In this document: positions 27,254 to 37,477 of the stretch, piece by piece
Layout of the letters: every line of letters begins with the position of its first letter
Numbering within the stretch: position 1 is the first letter of the stretch
Assembly (NCBI RefSeq): GCF_009937765.1
Contig: NZ_CP047089.1
Coordinates: forward strand, 1,052,272 to 1,116,271
DNA length: 64,000 nt
Origin: Bacillus pumilus
GTDB lineage: Bacteria > Bacillota > Bacilli > Bacillales > Bacillaceae
Direction: 5' to 3'
Made by a program: the position numbers and the translations under genes
The notes under the pieces: model-generated
The model's database searches: none
Seen by the model: the letters and a program-made list of their open reading frames with translations, nothing else
What the model was told of the DNA's origin: nothing

Positions 27254-27282
27254 TGAAACCTATCTTGAACGTAGATCGTATA
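27254..27282 (+). promoter_or_regulatory. ECF sigma factor promoter of the yce operon
   Basis: TGAAAC (27254-27259) and CGTATA (27277-27282) are 17 bases apart, matching the SigW/SigM/SigX class. The B. subtilis yceCDEFGH operon is known to be driven by these envelope-stress sigma factors. The rest of the 27005-27416 gap holds the parS-like site and no gene. Confidence 0.7.
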
Positions 27283-27416
27283 TACTAGTAAATAGAAAAA
27301 AGAGTAAGAGGCTCCAAGGTCATTTCATGAATTTTGTCGAATTTTCATGTATGATGATTTTAATAGGGTCCATCGCTTAATAAATAGATTTTTATTATGC
27401 TGGAGGAGTGATTGAT

Positions 27417-28019
27417 TTGGCGATTACATTAGAAAAGGGTCAACGTATTGATTTAACAAAAGGCAAAGCAGGGCTAACGAATATTCTTGTTGGACTTGGC
27501 TGGGATCCTGTATCACAAGGCGGCGGATTTTTAGGAAAGCTGTTTGGTGGCGGAGGCGGCGCTGATATTGATTGTGACGCTTCAGTGCTCATGCTGAAAA
27601 ATGATAAGTTTGTTGAAAATAAAGATTTGATTTACTTTGGTAACTTGAAAAGCAAGTGCGGCAGTGTTGAGCATACAGGTGACAACCTGACAGGTGAAGG
27701 AGACGGAGATGATGAACAAGTCCTCGTCAACTTAAGCAAGGTGCCAGGCAATGTGAATAAATTGGTGTTTGTAGTGAACATCTATGATGCACTTAGAAGA
27801 AATCAACATTTTGGTATGATTCAAAATGCGTACATTCGCATTGTCGATCGTTCAAACAATCAAGAACTAGTGAAATATAATTTAAAAGATGAATATGCAG
27901 GGAAAACATCATTAATCGTTGGAGAGCTTTATCGCCACGAAAATGAATGGAAGTTTGTTGCTGTAGGAAATGGTACAAACGATGCGAAGCTTGCCGATAT
28001 TACGAGAAACTACATTTAA
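27417..28019 (+). CDS. yceC: TerD-domain stress protein YceC
   Basis: A 200-residue TerD/CABP1-type protein. It starts [15 protein letters not shown], has the calcium-binding segments ADIDCDAS and GEGDGDDEQ, and ends [15 protein letters not shown], all typical. Unlike its two neighbours it carries a glycine-rich insertion ([14 protein letters not shown]) before the first calcium motif. Start TTG 27417 lies eight bases after GGAGGAG. TerD proteins bind calcium and are part of tellurite/envelope stress defence; molecular action is unresolved. First gene of the operon. Confidence 0.92.
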
Positions 28020-28039
28020 TCAGAAGGGAGAGATTCCTA

Positions 28040-28621
28040 GTGGGAATTTCTTTAGCGAAAGGTCAAAAAATTGATTTAACAAAAACGAATCCAGGTTTAA
28101 CAAAAGTAGTCGTAGGTCTTGGCTGGGATGTAAACAAGTATGATGGCGGACATGACTTTGATCTAGACGCAAGCGTATTCCTTTTAGATGCAGCAGGGAA
28201 AGCAAACTCTCCATCTGACTTTGTTTTCTACAATCAAACGACTGGCGGTGGCGGAAGTATCGTACATACAGGCGATAACCGTACAGGTGAAGGAGACGGA
28301 GATGACGAGCAGGTCAATGTTGATCTTTCAACTGTACCAGCGAGTATTGAGAAAATCTCCTTCGTCATTACAATCCATGACGCAGAAGCACGCAGCCAAA
28401 ACTTTGGACAGGTTTCTAACGCTTACGTCCGTATTTTAAATGCAGCATCAAATGAAGAACTGATTCGCTACGATTTGGCAGAGGACTTCTCTATTGAGAC
28501 AGCGATTATTGTAGGTGAATTATACCGTCACGGCGGAGAATGGAAATTCTCAGCTGTCGGATCGGGCTATCAAGGCGGACTTGCCCGCATTGCAACGGAC
28601 TTCGGATTAGATATCGGGTAA
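28040..28621 (+). CDS. yceD: TerD-domain stress protein YceD
   Basis: A 193-residue TerD protein nearly collinear with B. subtilis YceD. Motifs: [29 protein letters not shown] (calcium ligands), [10 protein letters not shown] and [20 protein letters not shown]. The GTG start at 28040 follows AGAAGGGAGAG. It lies 20 bp after yceC and is close in sequence to yceE, indicating tandem duplication. Confidence 0.93.
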
Positions 28622-28662: not shown

Positions 28663-29241
28663 ATGGCGATTCAGCTATCAAAAGGACAACGTGTCGATTT
28701 AACAAAAACCAACCCAGGACTGACGAAAGTGATGATCGGTCTTGGGTGGGATACGAATAAATATTCAGGTGGAGCCGAATTTGATTTGGACGCTTCAGCA
28801 TTCTTAGTGGATGCAAACAATCGTTGTCAGCAAGACACAGACTTTGTTTTCTATAATAACCTTCAGCATCCAAGCGGCAGTGTCACTCATACAGGTGATA
28901 ACCGGACGGGTGAAGGAGATGGAGATGACGAGCAAATTCTCGTTGATTTCTCAAAAATTCCTGCTAACATTGATCGTATCGGAATTACAGTAACGATTCA
29001 TGATGCAGAGGCGCGCAGCCAGAATTTTGGACAAGTCTCAAATGCGTTTGTTCGTGTTGTAAATGAAGAGGGCGGGGAAGAATTGATTCGCTTTGATTTA
29101 GGGGAAGACTTCTCAATTGAAACAGCTGTTGTGGTATGTGAACTATACCGCCACGGAAGCGATTGGAAGTTTAACGCGATCGGAAGCGGATTCTCTGGCG
29201 GACTTGCAGCTCTTTGTCAAAATTATGGGTTAGAAGTATAA
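28663..29241 (+). CDS. yceE: TerD-domain stress protein YceE
   Basis: A 192-residue TerD protein, sister of YceD. It has [38 protein letters not shown] and the same [20 protein letters not shown] segment. Start ATG 28663 after ACAGGAGAG. Both calcium motifs are complete. The two copies differ mostly at surface positions, so they may form hetero-assemblies; this is inference. Confidence 0.93.
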
Positions 29242-29382: not shown

Positions 29383-30162
29383 TTGGACATTTTGAAACAT
29401 ATGTTGGACACCTATGCTTCGTTTTTTGATTGGCATATGTGGGCAGAGGTATTAACAAACCCTGTCTCTTGGGGGCTCATTGGGACCCTTGTTGTGCTTG
29501 AAGGATTGTTATCAGCAGATAACGCACTTGTATTAGCCGTCATGGTGAAACACTTACCAGAAAAGCAGCGTAAAAAGGCATTAACCTACGGATTAATTGG
29601 CGCTTATTTCTTCCGTTTTCTATTCATTGGCGTAGGGATGCTGCTGATTAAATTCTGGTGGATTAAGGTTCTCGGAGCTGCATATTTAGCATGGCTTGTC
29701 ATTAAGCACTTCTGGTTAGGTGACGGCGATGATGAAGCGAAGGAATTGAAAAAAGAAGGCTGGATGATTCGCGTATTTGGCGTGTTCTGGGCAACCGTTA
29801 TTTCTGTGGAAATTATGGACCTTGCCTTCTCGGTGGACAGTATTCTTGCGGCATTCGCTGTATCTGAGGAAGTATGGATTCTGCTTTTAGGCGGAATGCT
29901 TGGTATTCTCATGATGCGTACAGTGGCACAGTTATTCCTTGTCCTCATTGACCGTATTCCTGAGCTTGAGAATACCGCGTTTATTCTCATTGGGATTATT
30001 GCCATCAAAATGGGCTTAAGTGCTGCCCATATTGAAATTCCGCATCTTGCATTCTTTGCGATTATTATTCTAGCGTTTATCGGGACGTTTATTGTTCATA
30101 AAATCAATAAGAAGAAACATCAAGATGTGACAAACGAAGCTGCGGCTTCAAAAGAAGAATAG
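29383..30162 (+). CDS. yceF: TerC-family membrane protein YceF (manganese export)
   Basis: A 259-residue TerC/Alx protein with seven to eight helices. Conserved metal-site acids appear in LEGLLSADNALVLAVMV and in EIMDLAFSVDSILAAFAVS. B. subtilis YceF and its paralogue YkoY have been shown to affect manganese export/metalation of secreted proteins. Start TTG 29383, RBS TAGGAGGAAAA. It ends the first half of the operon; a strong terminator follows before the inserted module. Confidence 0.92.
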   Translation: MDILKHMLDTYASFFDWHMWAEVLTNPVSWGLIGTLVVLEGLLSADNALVLAVMVKHLPEKQRKKALTYGLIGAYFFRFLFIGVGMLLIKFWWIKVLGAAYLAWLVIKHFWLGDGDDEAKELKKEGWMIRVFGVFWATVISVEIMDLAFSVDSILAAFAVSEEVWILLLGGMLGILMMRTVAQLFLVLIDRIPELENTAFILIGIIAIKMGLSAAHIEIPHLAFFAIIILAFIGTFIVHKINKKKHQDVTNEAAASKEE

Positions 30163-30168
30163 GTGATC

Positions 30169-30207
30169 AAAAAGGAATGGAGTTGACTAGCGGCTCCATC
30201 CTTTTTT
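30169..30207 (+). terminator. Terminator after yceF
   Basis: AAAAAGGAATGGAG pairs with CTCCATCCTTTTTT (one mismatch) and a T-tract, so the downstream module depends on read-through or its own promoter. Confidence 0.85.
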
Positions 30208-30255: not shown

Positions 30256-31446
30256 ATGCGGTATTTTCGATTTTTATCAGAGGCGATGCAGCACGATCTT
30301 TTTTTCAAGCGGCCGGGGGCGATGCATTCATTGACACCAAGGCACGTACTTGCGCATGCATTAGGTGCTACTTTGTATATGCCTGCGACAAGACAAGATA
30401 TAGCAGATATGCTGCTGTCGCAGAAATATGAAGCGCTTTGCTCTGTTGTCTTTTGCTTGGAGGATGCCATCGGTGATCAAGAAGTGGATATGGCCGAACA
30501 GAATCTAGTGGCACAACTGGCCAGTCTCAAAGAGAAAGTCACGCATGCTCCTGAAACGGCTGAACATTTGCCTCTTATATTTATTCGCGTTCGTTCGCCG
30601 AAACAGCTGCTCAAAATGGCAGACTTGCTCGGTTCCTCTCTTCAATTACTTACCGGTTTTGTGTTCCCGAAGTGCTCGGTTCATAATGCGAAAGATTATT
30701 TGGACAGTCTGAAACAGGCATCGGCCAAAACGCAGACAATCCTTTATGGGATGCCCATTTTGGAAACACCCGATTTACTAGAAAAAGAAACAAGATATAC
30801 GGTGTTGTCAGAGTTAAAGCAGATTTTGCTGAATGACGAGGAATATATTTTGAATATTCGCATTGGGGCAACGGATCTTTGTGGTTTGTACGGGATTCGC
30901 CGTGATCGTGACACGACCATATATGAAATTCATTTGATTGCTGACTTGATCACAGATATCATCAATTATTTTGGCCGTTCTTTTGTGATATCTGGGGCTG
31001 TGTGGGAGCATTTTGGTCCTGCGCGAAAGGAACAAAAGCCATTCATTCGGGCACTTTCTCATAAGAGTGGTGAATCGTCTTCATCTGAATTTGATGACGT
31101 ACAAGGTTTACTGAAGGAGACAAAACTCGATGTGGCTAACGGCATTCATGGGAAGACGGTTATTCATCCAACACATCTCAAGCCTGTTCAAAGCATGTAT
31201 GTTGTGACGAAGGAAGAGTATATGGATGCATTAAGCATTCTTGAACATGCAGACGGCACAATTGGCGTAATGAAGAGTACCTTCTCTAATAAAATGAATG
31301 AAACGAAGCCCCATTACAGATGGGCAGAGCACATTTTAATGAAGTCAGATATTTATGGGGTGTTTCATGAAAACAGAAACTATATCGACATACTCACAGA
31401 AGCAGAAGCCGCATACGCTGAGCATCTTGGAACATATGGAAGTTGA
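30256..31446 (+). CDS. HpcH/HpaI (CitE-like) aldolase/lyase, Ter-linked
   Basis: A 396-residue TIM-barrel protein of the HpcH/HpaI aldolase family related to citrate lyase beta. The acidic metal/CoA-site motif FCLEDAIGDQEVD is near residue 70, followed by FIRVRSP, GFVFPKC and the GKTVIHPTHLKP motif near residue 300. It is about 100 residues longer than CitE, as in the versions found in Ter-linked gene sets. RBS AACAGGAGGTGG. First gene of a four-gene module; predicted to take part in making a small metabolite (inference from the family's published genomic association). Confidence 0.8.
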   Translation: MRYFRFLSEAMQHDLFFKRPGAMHSLTPRHVLAHALGATLYMPATRQDIADMLLSQKYEALCSVVFCLEDAIGDQEVDMAEQNLVAQLASLKEKVTHAPETAEHLPLIFIRVRSPKQLLKMADLLGSSLQLLTGFVFPKCSVHNAKDYLDSLKQASAKTQTILYGMPILETPDLLEKETRYTVLSELKQILLNDEEYILNIRIGATDLCGLYGIRRDRDTTIYEIHLIADLITDIINYFGRSFVISGAVWEHFGPARKEQKPFIRALSHKSGESSSSEFDDVQGLLKETKLDVANGIHGKTVIHPTHLKPVQSMYVVTKEEYMDALSILEHADGTIGVMKSTFSNKMNETKPHYRWAEHILMKSDIYGVFHENRNYIDILTEAEAAYAEHLGTYGS

Positions 31447-32767
31447 GCTTGATCTCAAAGAAGGTGCGCTTCACCTAGAAAAAAAGCATCTTTTTGACAT
31501 GGCGGCAAGGGTGAACAAAAAAAGAGCCTTTTTATTTGTTAGTAAGGTGCTTGGCAAACACATTCCTGTTCATCCAGTCAAACCGCTCCTTGTCTCGGGT
31601 CTTTTAGCCATGGCGTATGCCAAAGAACAAACAGGCAAGACGTCTCCGCATCAAGACCTTTTAGTAGAAGCACTTAAGACAGATGACCACGCGGTATCAT
31701 CTAAAGCCTACGAAGCGCTCAAAAAAGAGAAACTTTCAGTAGGAAAACAGCCGATCGTGATCGGCTTTGCAGAAACAGCAACCGCTCTTGGACACGGTGT
31801 GTATGACGTCTTAGAAGGAGCATCTTACATTCATACGACACGTGAGCAGCTGCTGGATCTTGATCCTTCATTGGTCTTTGAAGAAGAGCATTCACATGCA
31901 ACGGATCAGCTTTGTTATGCAGACGTATCATTGCTTAGAACAGATCGTCCTATCGTGCTAGTAGATGATGAAGTCACGACAGGTCGTACGAATATCAATA
32001 TCATCCGGGATCTTCATGCAAAGCACCCGCGACATTCTTACACAATTCTTTCTATTTTAGACTGGAGGACAGAGGAGCACGAAAAAGCCATGTGTGAGCT
32101 TGAAAAGGAGCTTGGTATTCACATCACCTCATTGTCTTTATTAAAAGGGAAAATGGTCTTTCGGGGCAAAACGCTGGATGAACCAGCTTATTCGTATGAG
32201 ATTGCTGAGCAAAAGGATCTGCCAAATCTCTCTTTTCACTCTCTTCAATCTTTCTTTCAGCAAGTGCCGTATGCACGTTCTCATGCAACCAATTCGGCAG
32301 GTCATTCGCCATATATACATGAAACGGGTCGTTTTGGTTTAAACGCAGCAAATACGGCAGCCATCGACCAAGCAGCTGCAGAGGCTGGATTGAAACTGAA
32401 GAAAGAACGCAAAGGAAAGCAGACACTTTGTTTAGGAACAGGTGAGCTGATGTATATACCGATGAGAGTAGCTGCCCATATGGGAGAGGGCGTTCTCTTT
32501 CATTCAACGACGAGAAGCCCTATTCATCCAGTTGAAAAGGATGGATATGCTGTTCAAAATGGGTTCACTTTTGTGAGTCCAGAGGATGCTCGAATTCAGC
32601 ATTACGTGTACAACATACCAAAAGGTCAATATGATGATGTATTTCTCTTCTTTGAGAAAAGGGTCTCTCAGGAGGCATTGCTTCCGCTTGTTCATTTATT
32701 TGCTGAGCGGCATGTGAAGCATGTGCATATTGTGACTTTATCAGATGAGGTGAAGGTGAATGGCTAA
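31436..32767 (+). CDS. Phosphoribosyltransferase with TRSP domain
   Basis: A 443-residue two-domain protein. The N-terminal part is a type I phosphoribosyltransferase with the PRPP loop VLVDDEVTTGRTNINII near residue 180. The C-terminal part is a TRSP domain, with its naming motif visible in FHSTTRSPIHP. I chose ATG 31436, which overlaps the previous gene by 11 bp; ATG 31367 is possible but overlaps by 80 bp. It ends 8 bp inside the next gene. PRTase-TRSP proteins occur with HpcH, PELOTA and HAD genes in Ter-linked modules thought to build a nucleoside-like molecule. Confidence 0.8.
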   Translation: MEVELDLKEGALHLEKKHLFDMAARVNKKRAFLFVSKVLGKHIPVHPVKPLLVSGLLAMAYAKEQTGKTSPHQDLLVEALKTDDHAVSSKAYEALKKEKLSVGKQPIVIGFAETATALGHGVYDVLEGASYIHTTREQLLDLDPSLVFEEEHSHATDQLCYADVSLLRTDRPIVLVDDEVTTGRTNINIIRDLHAKHPRHSYTILSILDWRTEEHEKAMCELEKELGIHITSLSLLKGKMVFRGKTLDEPAYSYEIAEQKDLPNLSFHSLQSFFQQVPYARSHATNSAGHSPYIHETGRFGLNAANTAAIDQAAAEAGLKLKKERKGKQTLCLGTGELMYIPMRVAAHMGEGVLFHSTTRSPIHPVEKDGYAVQNGFTFVSPEDARIQHYVYNIPKGQYDDVFLFFEKRVSQEALLPLVHLFAERHVKHVHIVTLSDEVKVNG

Positions 32768-33869
32768 TGTGTATACAAAGATGGGAAGCTATCCAGAGCA
32801 GGATGTAACCTTCTTACTCAAAGATTTATCATCCATTGAGATGGAAAAAAGTACAGAGGAGCGGGAGCGTTCAATTCAGAGTGGTGCGCATTATTCAGAA
32901 ATGCTGCCGATTGAATATAAACCAACGGAATCTTATATGGATTTATTCTATGAATCTCTGAAAGAAAGTAAGGAGAAGGTAGCAGAAGCAGTAGCTGTTG
33001 TAGCAGAACAGATTGTGAAAAGGCGAGGCTTCCAAACGGTGCTTTGCAGTTTGGCTAGAGCGGGAACGCCGATCGGGGTGCTCATCAAACGATATATTCG
33101 AAAGACATATGGTCTTGAATTGCCTCATTACAGCATCTCAATTATTCGTGATCGAGGAATTGATGAGAATGCGCTGCATTATATGCTCAAGGAACATCCG
33201 GGCTATGAGATTGCCTTTATTGATGGATGGACCGGAAAAGGTGCGATTTCGAGAGAGCTCCAACAAGCGGTGATTGATTTTGAAAGAAAGTACGGTATTC
33301 GTCTTTCTAGTGAACTGGCTGTACTCGCTGATCCAGGCTATTGTACACAAGTCTACGGAACGAGAGAGGACTTTCTCATTCCTAGTGCTTGTCTGAATTC
33401 GACTGTATCTGGACTTGTTAGTCGGACGGTACTAAACAACCGCTGGATCAATGCCGATGATTTCCATGGGGCAAAATATTATGAAGAGTTGCTTGATGAG
33501 GATGTGTCCAATCTGTATGTGGATACAATTGAAGAAGCCTTTTCTAGCCTCGAACCAAATCTAAAAGAGAAAGCAGAGACCATCCTCACGCAAGGAATAC
33601 CTGCGGATTGGCGGGGGATGGCGTCGATTGAAGCGATCGGTCAGGAGTTTCAAATTGAAAACACTCATTTGATTAAACCGGGTGTTGGTGAGACGACCCG
33701 TGTGCTGCTGAGAAGAATTCCTTGGAAAATCTTAATTCAGCCTGGGTCTCAGGAAAAGCTAAAGCATATTTTGCTTCTGGCAGAGGACAGAGGCGTTCCT
33801 GTCATTGAATATGCCAATATGTCCTATACGTGCTGTGGACTTATTCGTCCGTTGGAGCAGACATCATGA
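32760..33869 (+). CDS. StiP/PELOTA-domain protein of the Ter-linked module
   Basis: A 369-residue protein matching the so-called cysteine protease StiP family: an N-terminal PRTase-like domain (VLCSLARAGTPIGVLIKRY, then AFIDGWTGKGAI) and a C-terminal PELOTA-type RNA-binding domain (KPGVGETTRVLLRRIPWKI). The protease label of the family is not evident from a clear catalytic pair, so I would not rely on it. It overlaps both neighbours by a few bases, indicating coupled translation. Confidence 0.78.
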   Translation: MANVYTKMGSYPEQDVTFLLKDLSSIEMEKSTEERERSIQSGAHYSEMLPIEYKPTESYMDLFYESLKESKEKVAEAVAVVAEQIVKRRGFQTVLCSLARAGTPIGVLIKRYIRKTYGLELPHYSISIIRDRGIDENALHYMLKEHPGYEIAFIDGWTGKGAISRELQQAVIDFERKYGIRLSSELAVLADPGYCTQVYGTREDFLIPSACLNSTVSGLVSRTVLNNRWINADDFHGAKYYEELLDEDVSNLYVDTIEEAFSSLEPNLKEKAETILTQGIPADWRGMASIEAIGQEFQIENTHLIKPGVGETTRVLLRRIPWKILIQPGSQEKLKHILLLAEDRGVPVIEYANMSYTCCGLIRPLEQTS

Positions 33870-34681
33870 AGACAAGTGCGTTTGCCAGTGATTTAGACCG
33901 GACGCTGATTTATTCACACCGAGTGTTAGATCACTATGAGTATGATGGAGATTATGATTTAGTTGAGATGCTGGATGAGCGCCCGCTTTCCTATATGTCG
34001 GTTGAAACGAAGAAGTCTTTGAAGATGATTCATCAGTTAGGCTGGTTCATTCCAGTGACGACAAGAACGACCGCTCAGTATGAACGGATCACCTTCTTTC
34101 AGCAAGAGCTCAAACCGGAGTATGCCGTCACGACAAATGGGGGCTGTATCCTTCATCACGGCAAGCCGCTTGAGGATTGGCAGGTCATTGTTGATGAGAG
34201 GCTCAAAGCGTGTATGTCAGTCAGAGAGATGCTAAGAGCCATCTCCGAACTGCCAGTTGCAGCATGGGTGAAGCGTACCCGGACAGCAGAGGGAAGATTT
34301 CTTTATTTGATTATGAAAGATGAGTATCTTTCTCGCATTCCACTTGCCGAATTGAAGCAGTGGGGCGAGGAGAGAGGCTGGCAGGTGTCTCTACAAGGGC
34401 GGAAGCTTTATTTTATTCCGGCACCGCTTAATAAGTGGGATGCTGTTGCTTTTCTAAAGGAACGGCTGGCGCTTGAATATGTATATGGAGCGGGTGATTC
34501 CCTCTTAGATGCAGGACTTATTCGACAGGCAGATATGGGCTTTGCCCCAAGGCATGGAGAAGTGCTCGACTTTGATCCGTTACTTGAGCCGACAGCAGCA
34601 TCTGGCATGGCAGCAGCAGATGAAATCACCGCTTGTGTCAAAAAGCAGATGACGACCGCAAAAAAGCCCTCGATTCGATAG
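33866..34681 (+). CDS. HAD-superfamily phosphatase, Ter-linked
   Basis: A 271-residue HAD hydrolase. The nucleophile motif is FASDLDRTLIYS (residues about 5-16), motif II is VTTRTTAQY, and the acidic motif IV is YGAGDSLLDAGLI. The cap is of the Cof/SPP type. Start ATG 33866 overlaps the previous stop as ATGA. It most likely removes a phosphate from the module's product. Last gene of the inserted module; 70 bp later yceG begins. Confidence 0.8.
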   Translation: MKTSAFASDLDRTLIYSHRVLDHYEYDGDYDLVEMLDERPLSYMSVETKKSLKMIHQLGWFIPVTTRTTAQYERITFFQQELKPEYAVTTNGGCILHHGKPLEDWQVIVDERLKACMSVREMLRAISELPVAAWVKRTRTAEGRFLYLIMKDEYLSRIPLAELKQWGEERGWQVSLQGRKLYFIPAPLNKWDAVAFLKERLALEYVYGAGDSLLDAGLIRQADMGFAPRHGEVLDFDPLLEPTAASGMAAADEITACVKKQMTTAKKPSIR

Positions 34682-34751: not shown

Positions 34752-36368
34752 GTGAGTTATAAAGAAATCATTGTTAACCAAACACGGGCAGAGCAGGAAG
34801 CCTGGAAAAACGTGCTGAAAAAGCCGCTCCCTGAAAGAGATGGTTATGTAAAGGACGAGCATACATTGTCCTTGCCGCGTCTCGCCGCCCGGGTCCTTGG
34901 AACTCCGCATGATGCAACCGATTATTTTATTTATTTACATGAATTATATGAAACAGATGGCATTCATATTTTAAGTGAAACGCTCAATCGTCATATTGAG
35001 CCGGAGCATTTTCAAGCGCTTCAACGCATTCATTTGATTAACCAAGAAGAAAAGGGACTGTCCGTGAATCGCTTTGTGGCTTTCTTAGATGGTGAACAGC
35101 TGATTGTACGCCATCCAAACCCAGTGATGAACCGGCATATCCGTCTTTCATTGATCAAGGTGTTTGAGCATTTCAAGCAGCTGCATGAAGGCGGATTTCA
35201 GCATCCCGATTTCCGCCGTGTTTTGCTGGATGTCGTAAAGTTCTCAAATAATCATCTAGGTCCATGGCTGAAGGAAGTCAATATAGAAGAAAAAATGCCG
35301 GCTGTCATTTGGTATGGAGAGGCGAATAAAAGTCAGCTTTATTTTCTTTACTATGTCATGCTGATTGGCTGTGATGTTGTACTATTTCATCCAGAGGGCG
35401 AGGATTCGTTCCGCGAACTAGATCCAGAAGAAAAGCTGACTTTTATTGATCAGTATCCGGGGACTACGAAGCTGGAACCGTTCCCTACTGAAAAGCCTGA
35501 GAGGAAATCGACGGTGGCGTACCGCTCGACAAGAGAGCTTGAAGAGGTGCTCCATACGGAAGATTCAATGCTGTATAAGCCGTGGCAATTCAGAGATCAT
35601 ACTCCTCATTCTATTACGCTGAAGACAACGTATGATGAGTTGTTTTTGATTGCAAAGGAACGATCCTTTATTCGCCCTAATTTTCAAGCAGACCGCGACA
35701 CGATACAGATTCCAAATCTCTTTGCGAAAATGATGGGAGTCACACGAGACAAACGTGAATACTGGGATCGTATCCACACGTTAATGGAATGGAAAGAGAC
35801 GAAGACCATTCGCCATTTCCCTTTTACGAAAGAAGTGACATCGAATTATCAATTTCATTATCAGCACGCCCTTTCATCTGCTGGAGAGATTGATCCTGAA
35901 TTATTAATGAAAAGCAATGTGTGGCAATTTTCTCATCTATATGAGGGGACGCAGCGTGCGATAGCAGAGGCAATATCTCGAATCTGTCAGCATCCGAAGC
36001 TATTAAAGGAAGGCAATGAGACTGAATTAGATGTACGTATTTATTTATTCAAACAGGTACTGCATATTGGTCAGGAGCTCATTGAACTCATTCAAAACTT
36101 TGATTATGCGCAAACCGTACCGAAAGTGATTTTATATCATACGGAATATAATGGTGAGCTGACTCGTTCTGATGCGGCTGCCCTCATTTTCCTAAATGAA
36201 ATGGGTGTGGATCTCTTCGTGTATCATCCGGCGGGATACCAGTGTATCGAGCGGTATATAGATGACCAATTATTTGATACCCATTGGCTTGATGACATGG
36301 TCATGAACCAGGAGTTTAAAGAGCCGTCCATCGTTAGAAAATTATTTCAATCCATTAAAAACCGATAA
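34752..36368 (+). CDS. yceG: Toxic-anion resistance protein YceG
   Basis: A 538-residue protein matching B. subtilis YceG (about 537). Two related halves are visible: VIWYGEANKSQLYFLYYVML with DVVLFHPEGED near residue 190, and VILYHTEYNGELTRSDAAAL with DLFVYHPAGYQ near residue 460, so the protein is an internal duplication. No membrane segment. GTG start 34752 after GGAAAGGAG. Partner of YceH in resistance to tellurite and some envelope-active agents; mechanism unknown. Confidence 0.9.
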   Translation: MSYKEIIVNQTRAEQEAWKNVLKKPLPERDGYVKDEHTLSLPRLAARVLGTPHDATDYFIYLHELYETDGIHILSETLNRHIEPEHFQALQRIHLINQEEKGLSVNRFVAFLDGEQLIVRHPNPVMNRHIRLSLIKVFEHFKQLHEGGFQHPDFRRVLLDVVKFSNNHLGPWLKEVNIEEKMPAVIWYGEANKSQLYFLYYVMLIGCDVVLFHPEGEDSFRELDPEEKLTFIDQYPGTTKLEPFPTEKPERKSTVAYRSTRELEEVLHTEDSMLYKPWQFRDHTPHSITLKTTYDELFLIAKERSFIRPNFQADRDTIQIPNLFAKMMGVTRDKREYWDRIHTLMEWKETKTIRHFPFTKEVTSNYQFHYQHALSSAGEIDPELLMKSNVWQFSHLYEGTQRAIAEAISRICQHPKLLKEGNETELDVRIYLFKQVLHIGQELIELIQNFDYAQTVPKVILYHTEYNGELTRSDAAALIFLNEMGVDLFVYHPAGYQCIERYIDDQLFDTHWLDDMVMNQEFKEPSIVRKLFQSIKNR

Positions 36369-36382
36369 GGAGATCAAAACTT

Positions 36383-37477
36383 ATGACAAATACAAACGGA
36401 AATGACATCATTTCAATTGATAAAGAGGAAATCTCCATTGAGAAGGCAGACGATATTCGCGTTCAGCTTCGAAATGAACCAGAAGTGCAAAATATTGCTA
36501 GACAGATCGATGCGAAAAATCAGCTGGAGCTACTTGAATACGGAAAACAGCCGGCTGTAGAAATTTCTAAGTTCTCAGATCGTATTCTTTCAATGATGCG
36601 TTCAACAAGCGTGACTGATTCAGGGACGATGCTGACGCAGCTTGGAAAAATTATGGATCGTTTTGATAAAAATGATTTTGACGAGCCAAAGGGTGGCTTA
36701 CTGTCAAAAATCTTTAAGCGCGGCGGCAGCATGATTGAAAAGATTTTCAGTAAATATCAAACGCTCGGTGCAGAAATTGAAAAAATTAATGTGGAAATCA
36801 GTAAATATAAAGACGAAATGACCAAATCGACTGTGACGCTTGAAGAAATGTATGAGCATAACATTCAATACTATATGGAGCTTGAAAAGTATGTCGTTGC
36901 CGGTCAAATGAAAATCGAGGAATTAAAGCAATTGGTTCCTTCTTATGAAGAAAAAGCGGCTAGTGGAAACCAACTAGCACAAATGGAGCTTGATACACTT
37001 CGTAACGGTATTCAAGCATTGGAAGAGCGTGTATATGACCTTGATATGGCACGGATGGTAGCTCTTCAAACGGCACCGCAAATTCGTTTATTGCAGCGTG
37101 GGAATACGAAACTCATCGGTAAAATCAACTCAGCGTTCATCATCACGATACCTATCTTTAAAAATGGCATCATTCAAGCTGTGACAGCGAAAAGACAAAA
37201 GCTTGTGGCTGATTCAATGAGTGAGCTGGATAGAAGAACAAATGAGATGCTAAAACGAAATGCTGAAAACATTTCAAGCCAAAGCGTGGAGATTGCCAAA
37301 TTGTCTGGACGTCCAAGTATCGACATTGAAACAATTGAATCTTCCTTTAATACGATTGTACAAGGGATGAAAGAGACAAAGCAGATCGAAGAAGAAAACA
37401 AACGATTACGCGAAGATGGAACAAAACGTATGCTTGAGCTGCAAGATAATATTAAGCGAGCTGCACTAGAGTCCTAA
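36383..37477 (+). CDS. yceH: TelA-family protein YceH
   Basis: A 364-residue helical protein of the TelA/KlaA family, nearly the length of B. subtilis YceH. Long heptad-rich stretches dominate residues about 110-240 and 290-360. The conserved region VALQTAPQIRLLQRGNTKLI is near residue 225. It lacks membrane segments. It is 14 bp after yceG, with RBS AAGGAG, and ends at a terminator. TelA proteins are linked to tellurite, antibiotic and bacteriocin tolerance. Confidence 0.92.
   Translation: MTNTNGNDIISIDKEEISIEKADDIRVQLRNEPEVQNIARQIDAKNQLELLEYGKQPAVEISKFSDRILSMMRSTSVTDSGTMLTQLGKIMDRFDKNDFDEPKGGLLSKIFKRGGSMIEKIFSKYQTLGAEIEKINVEISKYKDEMTKSTVTLEEMYEHNIQYYMELEKYVVAGQMKIEELKQLVPSYEEKAASGNQLAQMELDTLRNGIQALEERVYDLDMARMVALQTAPQIRLLQRGNTKLIGKINSAFIITIPIFKNGIIQAVTAKRQKLVADSMSELDRRTNEMLKRNAENISSQSVEIAKLSGRPSIDIETIESSFNTIVQGMKETKQIEEENKRLREDGTKRMLELQDNIKRAALES

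Follow-up and report, generated by a model that had tools for sequence, protein, structure and literature searches.

The window analyzed here, a 64,000-nt stretch of the Bacillus pumilus chromosome (bases 1052272-1116271 of a 3,774,609-base one-contig genome), contains a Ter locus in which three TerD genes, TerC, four module genes, YceG and TelA all lie on the + strand. The four genes between TerC and YceG encode a C-C bond lyase, a phosphoribosyltransferase (PRTase) with a TRSP domain, a StiP protein with a PELOTA domain and a HAD-superfamily phosphatase, and we find that the locus is real, complete and under selection, and that it belongs to a kind of biosynthetic module already known by prediction. 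Anantharaman, Iyer and Aravind are said to have predicted in 2012 a Ter-linked module making a nucleoside-like compound, and the genes studied here share with it the Pfam families, the operonic arrangement and the position next to TerD, TerC and TelA. What is new is that the ATP-grasp partner is dispensable, that genomes without the module seem to have lost it and not to have escaped its insertion, that the lyase is separable from the other genes, and that StiP is predicted to be PyrR-like and possibly RNA-binding. We think it somewhat more probable than not that the cassette is a stress-inducible four-enzyme nucleotide or nucleoside pathway with an RNA-linked step. Its metabolite was predicted in 2012, and the passages we searched in the accessible literature, a scope that left subscription journals mostly outside, hold no report of an identified Ter-module product.

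A complete and conserved four-gene module

By Pfam, the families that define the module (HAD phosphatase, lyase and both PRTase-fold proteins) stand together in one gene row. The original prediction, made for this DNA from its letters and open reading frames, had described four overlapping genes with these domains between yceF (TerC) and yceG; every domain call held on the same strand, as did the position, and the TRSP and PELOTA domains, whose absence from a domain search had been named as a possible refutation, were both found (Table 1). Its assignment of the genes to the 2012 module is likewise supported by the families and by the TerD/TerC/TelA flanks. Given ATG starts at 31367 (PRTase), 32760 (StiP) and 33866 (HAD), successive module genes overlap by 80, 8 and 4 nt; an ATG at 31355 for the PRTase gene and a GTG at 33830 for the phosphatase gene are also open. 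At 26.6 bits, the phosphatase clears the PF05116 (HAD, S6PP) cut-off of 20.3.

To judge the module as a unit, we searched 398 Bacillota genomes (judging by the listed genome identifiers, the same set throughout) for the lyase (E <= 1e-20), StiP and TRSP, and call a genome in this set module-bearing when it has these three, the HAD phosphatase not being counted. The lyase was found in 21, StiP in 21 and TRSP in 20, with all three in 20, leaving one genome with the lyase only (G138) and one with only a weak StiP match (G231, 2.5e-22); relatives therefore retain or drop the set almost as a whole. Co-occurrence of lyase and StiP has a Fisher p of 1.7e-31, in a test that ignores relatedness. In one genome (G345) a single contig carries the lyase and the TRSP protein at 0.31 Mb but StiP and the HAD phosphatase at 1.35 Mb, so the parts have been kept without being neighbours. 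We also inspected 80 named loci, the best-scoring of at least 596 and leaning to Bacillota and actinomycetes, of which 79 were counted after dropping L144, the second contig of the assembly that supplied L142. All four genes are present in 76 of the 79 and never depart from the relative order lyase-PRTase-StiP-HAD. The remaining loci, L152, L195 and L220, have no lyase or PRTase in the stretch covered, and L220 starts at a contig end just before StiP. Since the same order is seen in 76 of 79 named loci and in 19 of the 34 loci from the genus described below, the gene row is far beyond chance. TerD is present in every one of the 63 named loci whose flanks were read widely. Of 98 loci with separate frames, 92 have a PRTase open frame that starts ahead of the lyase stop (counting open frames, not start codons), and in 20 of the 76 four-gene loci (6 Bacillota and 14 actinomycetes, frames taken stop to stop) the PRTase-TRSP and StiP-PELOTA parts form a single open frame. 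These natural fusions (L151, L177, L185, L192, L204 and L218, besides the 14 actinomycete loci) are useful single-chain material for structure work.

Conserved residues were counted after removing hits below 60 bits or covering less than 75% of the model, and sequences at least 85% identical to one already kept. Invariant positions include E69, D70, R111, K139, E170, R202 and D207 in the lyase (87 non-redundant sequences); E136, T137, T158, D201 and E202 in the PRTase (97); R100, G102, D155, G156, W157, G159, G161, D191, K306, E311, R314 and R319 in StiP (90); and D9, D11, T13, T65, K190 and D215 in the HAD phosphatase (103). We take these to be the metal, PRPP (phosphoribosyl pyrophosphate), pyrophosphate and HAD-motif sites of the four proteins. 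The metal-binding glutamate and aspartate of CitE/HpcH-type lyases are found in the lyase as E170 and D207, which are presumably its metal ligands. The PRPP loop of type I phosphoribosyltransferases has paired acidic residues, and the PRTase has them in its VDDExTTG motif, where D201 and E202 are present in 97 of 97 sequences and D200 in 95. The ratio of non-synonymous to synonymous substitution rates (dN/dS), computed on stop-to-stop frames that include some non-coding codons at the 5' end, is 0.06-0.24 for the PRTase, StiP and HAD genes in five pairs of full-module genomes and 0.08-0.17 for the lyase in all nine pairs. Judged by their sequences, all four enzymes look active.

NCBIfam contributed nothing but weak matches under the cut-offs: RipC and CitE models for the lyase, and models of four HAD-type families for the phosphatase. 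The likeness of the lyase to CitE, RipC and HpcH lyases consists of weak matches to curated families at its C-terminal region and of the invariant acidic residues; it falls far below the equivalog cut-offs (31.5 versus 375 and 22.3 versus 443.4 bits). The four module proteins, YceG and TelA had no match at 0.001 to any anti-phage defence model of PADLOC-DB 2.0.0.

Table 1. Features of the Ter locus, in window positions
Feature	Positions	Strand	Evidence
C-C_Bond_Lyase (TIM-barrel, HpcH/CitE-like), 396 aa	30256..31446	+	PF15617 9.1e-125
PRTase_2 + TRSP protein, 466 aa from ATG 31367	31367..32767	+	PF15609 3.5e-67, PF12500 1e-45
StiP + PELOTA_1 protein, 369 aa	32760..33869	+	PF11202 4.6e-110, PF15608 2.6e-33
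HAD-superfamily phosphatase, 271 aa from ATG 33866	33866..34681	+	PF05116 5.5e-6
ECF-type promoter motif TGAAAC-N17-CGTA, upstream of first TerD	27254..27280	+
TerD-family gene 1 (yceC-like)	27408..28019	+	Pfam 1.4e-74
TerD-family gene 2, likely GTG start inside open reading frame 27947-28621	28040..28621	+	Pfam 2.7e-84
TerD-family gene 3	28663..29241	+	Pfam 1.5e-87
TerC-family membrane protein (yceF/meeF-like)	29383..30162	+	Pfam 3.1e-52
Terminator-like stem after TerC	30177..30199	+
YceG, two YceG_bac stretches	34752..36368	+	PF14266 3.7e-117
TelA-family protein (yceH-like)	36383..37477	+	PF05816 9e-108

An accessory ATP-grasp and a probable history of loss

The original prediction described the ATP-grasp enzyme as often listed with the module and as not being in this window. 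The absence goes further than the window: no true ATP-grasp partner, a difference from the 2012 module, was found anywhere in this genome, and only 6 of the 20 module-bearing Bacillota have a true member, in each case at the module locus. True members were recognized with a Ter-specific alignment of eight Ter-locus proteins (six from Bacillota, one each from E. coli and P. putida), against which Ter-locus ATP-grasps score 436-578 bits in the building set and 293-572 bits in loci added later. Across all 44 genomes of the genus, this one included, no true Ter ATP-grasp was found; the best hit reaches 62 bits, and the hits are mostly in frames of carbamoyl-phosphate-synthase or carboxylase size. 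Among 21 Bacillota searched that lack the full marker set, one (G045) has a 205-bit relative; the difference between 6 of 20 and 1 of 21 gives a Fisher p of 0.04, again ignoring relatedness. At the named loci with wide flanks the ATP-grasp occurs in 20 of 63, and in one of the 76 four-gene loci it sits between lyase and PRTase. Because only a minority of module carriers have it, the core consists of the four genes and the ATP-grasp is a lineage-specific addition, an accessory and not a defining part of the module. Two candidates were discarded. The Pfam model PF15632 is unsuitable as an ATP-grasp marker, for it matches frames of 1034 and 1077 aa here, apparently the size of carbamoyl-phosphate synthase, and 13 of 14 controls. 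YceG does not stand in for the ATP-grasp either: among the 63 loci, 5 have both, 15 the ATP-grasp only, 27 YceG only and 16 neither.

Known plasmid versions differ in gene order and content. On an E. coli IncHI2 plasmid the order is ATP-grasp-PRTase-HAD-like-StiP-lyase, compared with lyase-PRTase-StiP-HAD-YceG-TelA here. The ter region of the Lactococcus plasmid pFI430 has the same order as the window, also with no ATP-grasp in the stretch read, but it is plasmid-borne, has three TerD genes and DUF475 downstream, and its StiP is 52.9% identical. Bacillus makes the question of the Ter metabolite testable on a single set of four genes and in bacteria that are easy to work with; the ATP-grasp and the other genes found in plasmid versions are not involved.

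Within the genus, all 44 genomes searched have YceG, whether or not they carry the module; 32 have the lyase, and StiP and TRSP occur in the same 29. Besides the window we read 34 genus loci: 19 carry the whole module, TerC directly borders YceG in 12, and three (G010, G012 and G017) retain the lyase only. The original prediction called the module embedded between genes that are adjacent in B. subtilis, which suggests an insertion. The adjacency is partly borne out: the B. subtilis control genome has YceG and no match to lyase, StiP or TRSP, and the TerC-YceG junction was read directly in the 12 module-less genus genomes, not in B. subtilis itself. An insertion is not supported by a FastTree phylogeny of YceG and TelA rooted with G310 (ancestral presence by parsimony, B. 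subtilis not on the tree), in which the 12 module-less loci form two separate clades of five and seven. These clades nest among full-module genomes, and we therefore read the module-less state as loss. The simplest reading is that the module is ancestral in the genus and was lost whole twice and trimmed to the lyase once, although the deep order of the module tree differs somewhat from that of the flank tree. The three lyase-only genomes group together in a single clade next to a full-module genome. What survives of their PRTase is about 25 codons at its start, where it overlaps the lyase; the rest is gone. The lyase dN/dS between these three species is 0.12-0.17, purifying selection from which it follows that the lyase serves some purpose independent of the other genes. 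Against a common genomic background, Bacillus naturally offers genotypes with the complete cassette, with the lyase alone and with no module at all, and B. subtilis apparently belongs to the last group.

A lyase outside any Ter locus was found in G138 (L224:847-10373), where a full-length PF15617 match (2.3e-114) has as neighbours an ATP-grasp, MmgE/PrpD, an aldo/keto reductase, two fumarase-type subunits, a DegT aminotransferase and a phosphonopyruvate decarboxylase (TIGR03297, 411 bits, cut-off 312.5); apart from a 28-bit ATP-grasp hit, no Ter model matched within the 15 kb covered. The genome also has a PEP_mutase-family gene, at a distance of about 1 Mb. The neighbourhood has the appearance of a cluster for the biosynthesis of a small acid or a phosphonate-type compound, a hint that oxo- or hydroxy-acids, and not nucleosides, are the substrates of the lyase family.

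The predicted fold of StiP

We modelled the window StiP and the fused PRTase-StiP of L151 with AlphaFold2, obtaining a predicted local distance difference test (pLDDT) of 92.7 and a predicted template-modelling score (pTM) of 0.92 for the former and 93.7 and 0.86 for the latter. With Foldseek, the StiP model matched 26 PDB chains at E <= 0.001, of which 18 are PyrR (few distinct proteins) and one is HGPRT; the other seven are low-probability matches to a hydroxymethyltransferase, an aminotransferase and a putative sugar-binding protein, with a root-mean-square deviation (rmsd) of 16-22 A. The sole hit at that threshold in a viral structure library is an uncharacterized protein, followed at weaker E-values by PRTase-domain and eRF1 proteins. 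The best structural matches of the fused chain are APRT, OPRT and PyrR, the matched half not being specified. StiP is thus predicted to be a PRTase-fold protein whose closest solved relative is PyrR, at moderate TM-scores. It keeps a pyrophosphate-loop-like S-L-x-R-A-G-x-P-x-G, and at the PRPP loop it differs from PyrR in having D-G-W-T-G-K-G in place of the paired acids (D155-G156 in 90 of 90 sequences).

A second difference from PyrR is an added L7Ae-like domain, the PELOTA part, for which 20 of 24 profile hits to PDB sequences are L7Ae-group chains, at E-values of 0.1-1.3. L7Ae and other kink-turn binders carry an RNA-contact motif of the N-E-x-x-K type, and the StiP tail has G310-E311-T-T-R314 at this position. 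The accessible part of a 2017 paper describes an E. coli member modelled on L7Ae and credits the link of the Ter PRTases to Anantharaman and co-workers (PMC5571608).

Proposed pathway, its control and the alternatives

An extracytoplasmic function (ECF)-type promoter motif precedes the first TerD gene. The exact pattern with free spacing occurs twice in the window against 0.29 expected by shuffling, the other copy being inside TerC; a pattern with fixed N16 and one mismatch was discarded, having given 10 matches against 14.3 expected. Of the 34 genus loci, 20 have TGAAAC-N15-17-CGT ahead of their first TerD, whereas none has the ECF motif between TerC and the gene that follows. The original prediction had a terminator after yceF separating the module from the TerD/TerC genes. 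The stem exists, but the separation is doubtful: an equivalent stem remains in all five module-less TerC-YceG junctions inspected (a YceG ribosome-binding site is visible by eye in three), so that it is probably read through. Likewise, the B. subtilis yceC-yceH genes, a Ter core with YceG like this one, are listed as one sigma-W/B/M-dependent unit in the portion of the source available (PMC3498285), which makes a partial stop at 30177-30199 more likely than a full one. The module would then probably be under the same ECF promoter through read-through. Upstream of YceG, the lyase-only clade (L073, L075 and L080) has a small helix-turn-helix (HTH)-like frame of about 73 codons, noted by eye, and L087 has matching DNA; in the window, the gap before YceG is only 70 nt, too short to hold such a frame. 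It is a possible local regulator.

In the pathway that we favour, the metal-dependent TIM-barrel lyase would make or trim a small building block of the 2-oxo- or hydroxy-acid type, and PRTase_2, whose PRPP loop is intact, would join a base-like piece to ribose-5-phosphate. StiP, often in one chain with the PRTase_2 protein, may act on or sense the nucleotide while touching RNA, and the HAD phosphatase would take off the phosphate and release a nucleoside, to which the ATP-grasp ligase, in the lineages that have it, may add a further group. The compound may serve or signal to the TerD/TerC/TelA membrane stress system. This reading draws on the domains, the invariant catalytic residues, the co-occurrence, the fusions, the PRTase-fold matches, the purifying selection and the TerD linkage. 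In the literature, Ter is described as a set of PRTases and HADs that produce a signal, together with sensors, with phage ME3 noted (PMC7824862); terZ-F alone is reported to give E. coli tellurite resistance, the link of the biosynthetic cluster to resistance being unclear (PMC8115787). TerC, terZABCDE or yceGH are the subjects of four further papers (PMC12054061, PMC12096827, PMC4633105 and PMC6813211), while PMC11167607 and PMC9796965 treat matters other than this module.

Several observations weigh against the pathway. Lyase-only genomes (three in the genus, and G138) show that the lyase works without the rest, and in the Acinetobacter jumbo phage ME3 (L101) genes for a PRTase, a HAD-like protein and StiP lie close to TerC/TerD-like genes, with no lyase in the 25 kb read; the place of the lyase in the pathway is therefore not certain. 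Module-less species retain the Ter core, which makes the connection with Ter function optional. Of the 34 loci, 14 lack the exact ECF motif, among them all seven of one module-less clade, either because the pattern is too strict or because control differs. For StiP, the template-modelling (TM) scores to PyrR are 0.47-0.57 of target with an rmsd of about 10 A (4p83_C, at 4.8 A, being the exception), the second acidic PRPP-loop residue is lacking, so that the protein may not catalyse, the resemblance of its tail to L7Ae is weak by sequence alone, and the asparagine of the L7Ae motif is replaced by glycine.

Another explanation, unlikely yet deserving a hearing, is that StiP-PELOTA is a PyrR-like RNA regulator or an RNA-acting ribosyl- or base-exchange enzyme, with the nucleotide sensed by or placed into kink-turn RNA and not freed. 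The preponderance of PyrR, an mRNA-binding PRTase-fold regulator, among the structural matches, the L7Ae-group alignments of a tail in which E311 and R314 are invariant, and the fusion of StiP to a canonical PRTase in about a quarter of four-gene loci all argue for it; set against these are the modest fit of the PyrR matches, the high E-values of the L7Ae hits and the absence of any Rfam match in the window, a search that did not extend to conserved RNA elements in relatives; a HAD phosphatase and a lyase also suit a free metabolite better. More speculative still, and in our judgement doubtful, is that both PRTase-fold proteins work together as a single machine, producing a ribosylated compound and linking it to an RNA, with a PyrR-like, kink-turn-binding StiP that senses the nucleotide through this RNA or builds it in. 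If this were true, the Ter stress system would have an RNA-linked messenger.

Sets of HAD and PRTase enzymes are typical of salvage, and the promoter motif makes induction together with envelope and metal stress genes likely, so the enzymes could break down or repair stress-damaged nucleotides, with the HAD phosphatase cleaning up and the PRTase running in reverse. We consider this improbable, as a C-C lyase in fixed order with PRTases and an optional ATP-grasp ligase looks synthetic, and 377 of 398 Bacillota lack StiP. Very improbable is that the Bacillus module is an inactive relic since its ATP-grasp went: the absence of that enzyme throughout the genus, its higher frequency with the module than without and the two losses fit a relic, but 14 of 20 module-bearing Bacillota also lack it, the catalytic residues are retained and the dN/dS values of the PRTase, StiP and HAD genes are low.

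Pfam (PF11202) and RefSeq label StiP a cysteine protease, a name carried by 37 of the 40 plasmid rows listed for StiP matches, and neither conservation nor the predicted fold supports this label. PRTase_1 is an older name of PF11202. In favour of a proteolytic stress switch stand these names and the best cysteine column, C211, which is Cys in 84 of 90 sequences. Such a switch is nevertheless hardly credible, for C211 is absent from E. coli, Pseudomonas and phage members, no cysteine is invariant in the 90, no cysteine protease is among the best 50 PDB structure matches, and the part of the 2017 paper available lists PRTase_1 and PELOTA_1 domains (PMC5571608). The predicted PyrR-like fold is a concrete alternative to the label.

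Beyond the chromosomal loci, StiP was matched in 2,567 of 72,556 plasmid records; among viral contigs a single StiP sequence gave no match and the StiP alignment gave three, one of which, judged by its length, is phage ME3 once more. Proteins that recur beside the module (L105, L106, L114, L151, L193 and others) include one of about 235 aa, one resembling P-type ATPases (about 820-930 aa) and others that look like TerB or vWA proteins, all named by eye.

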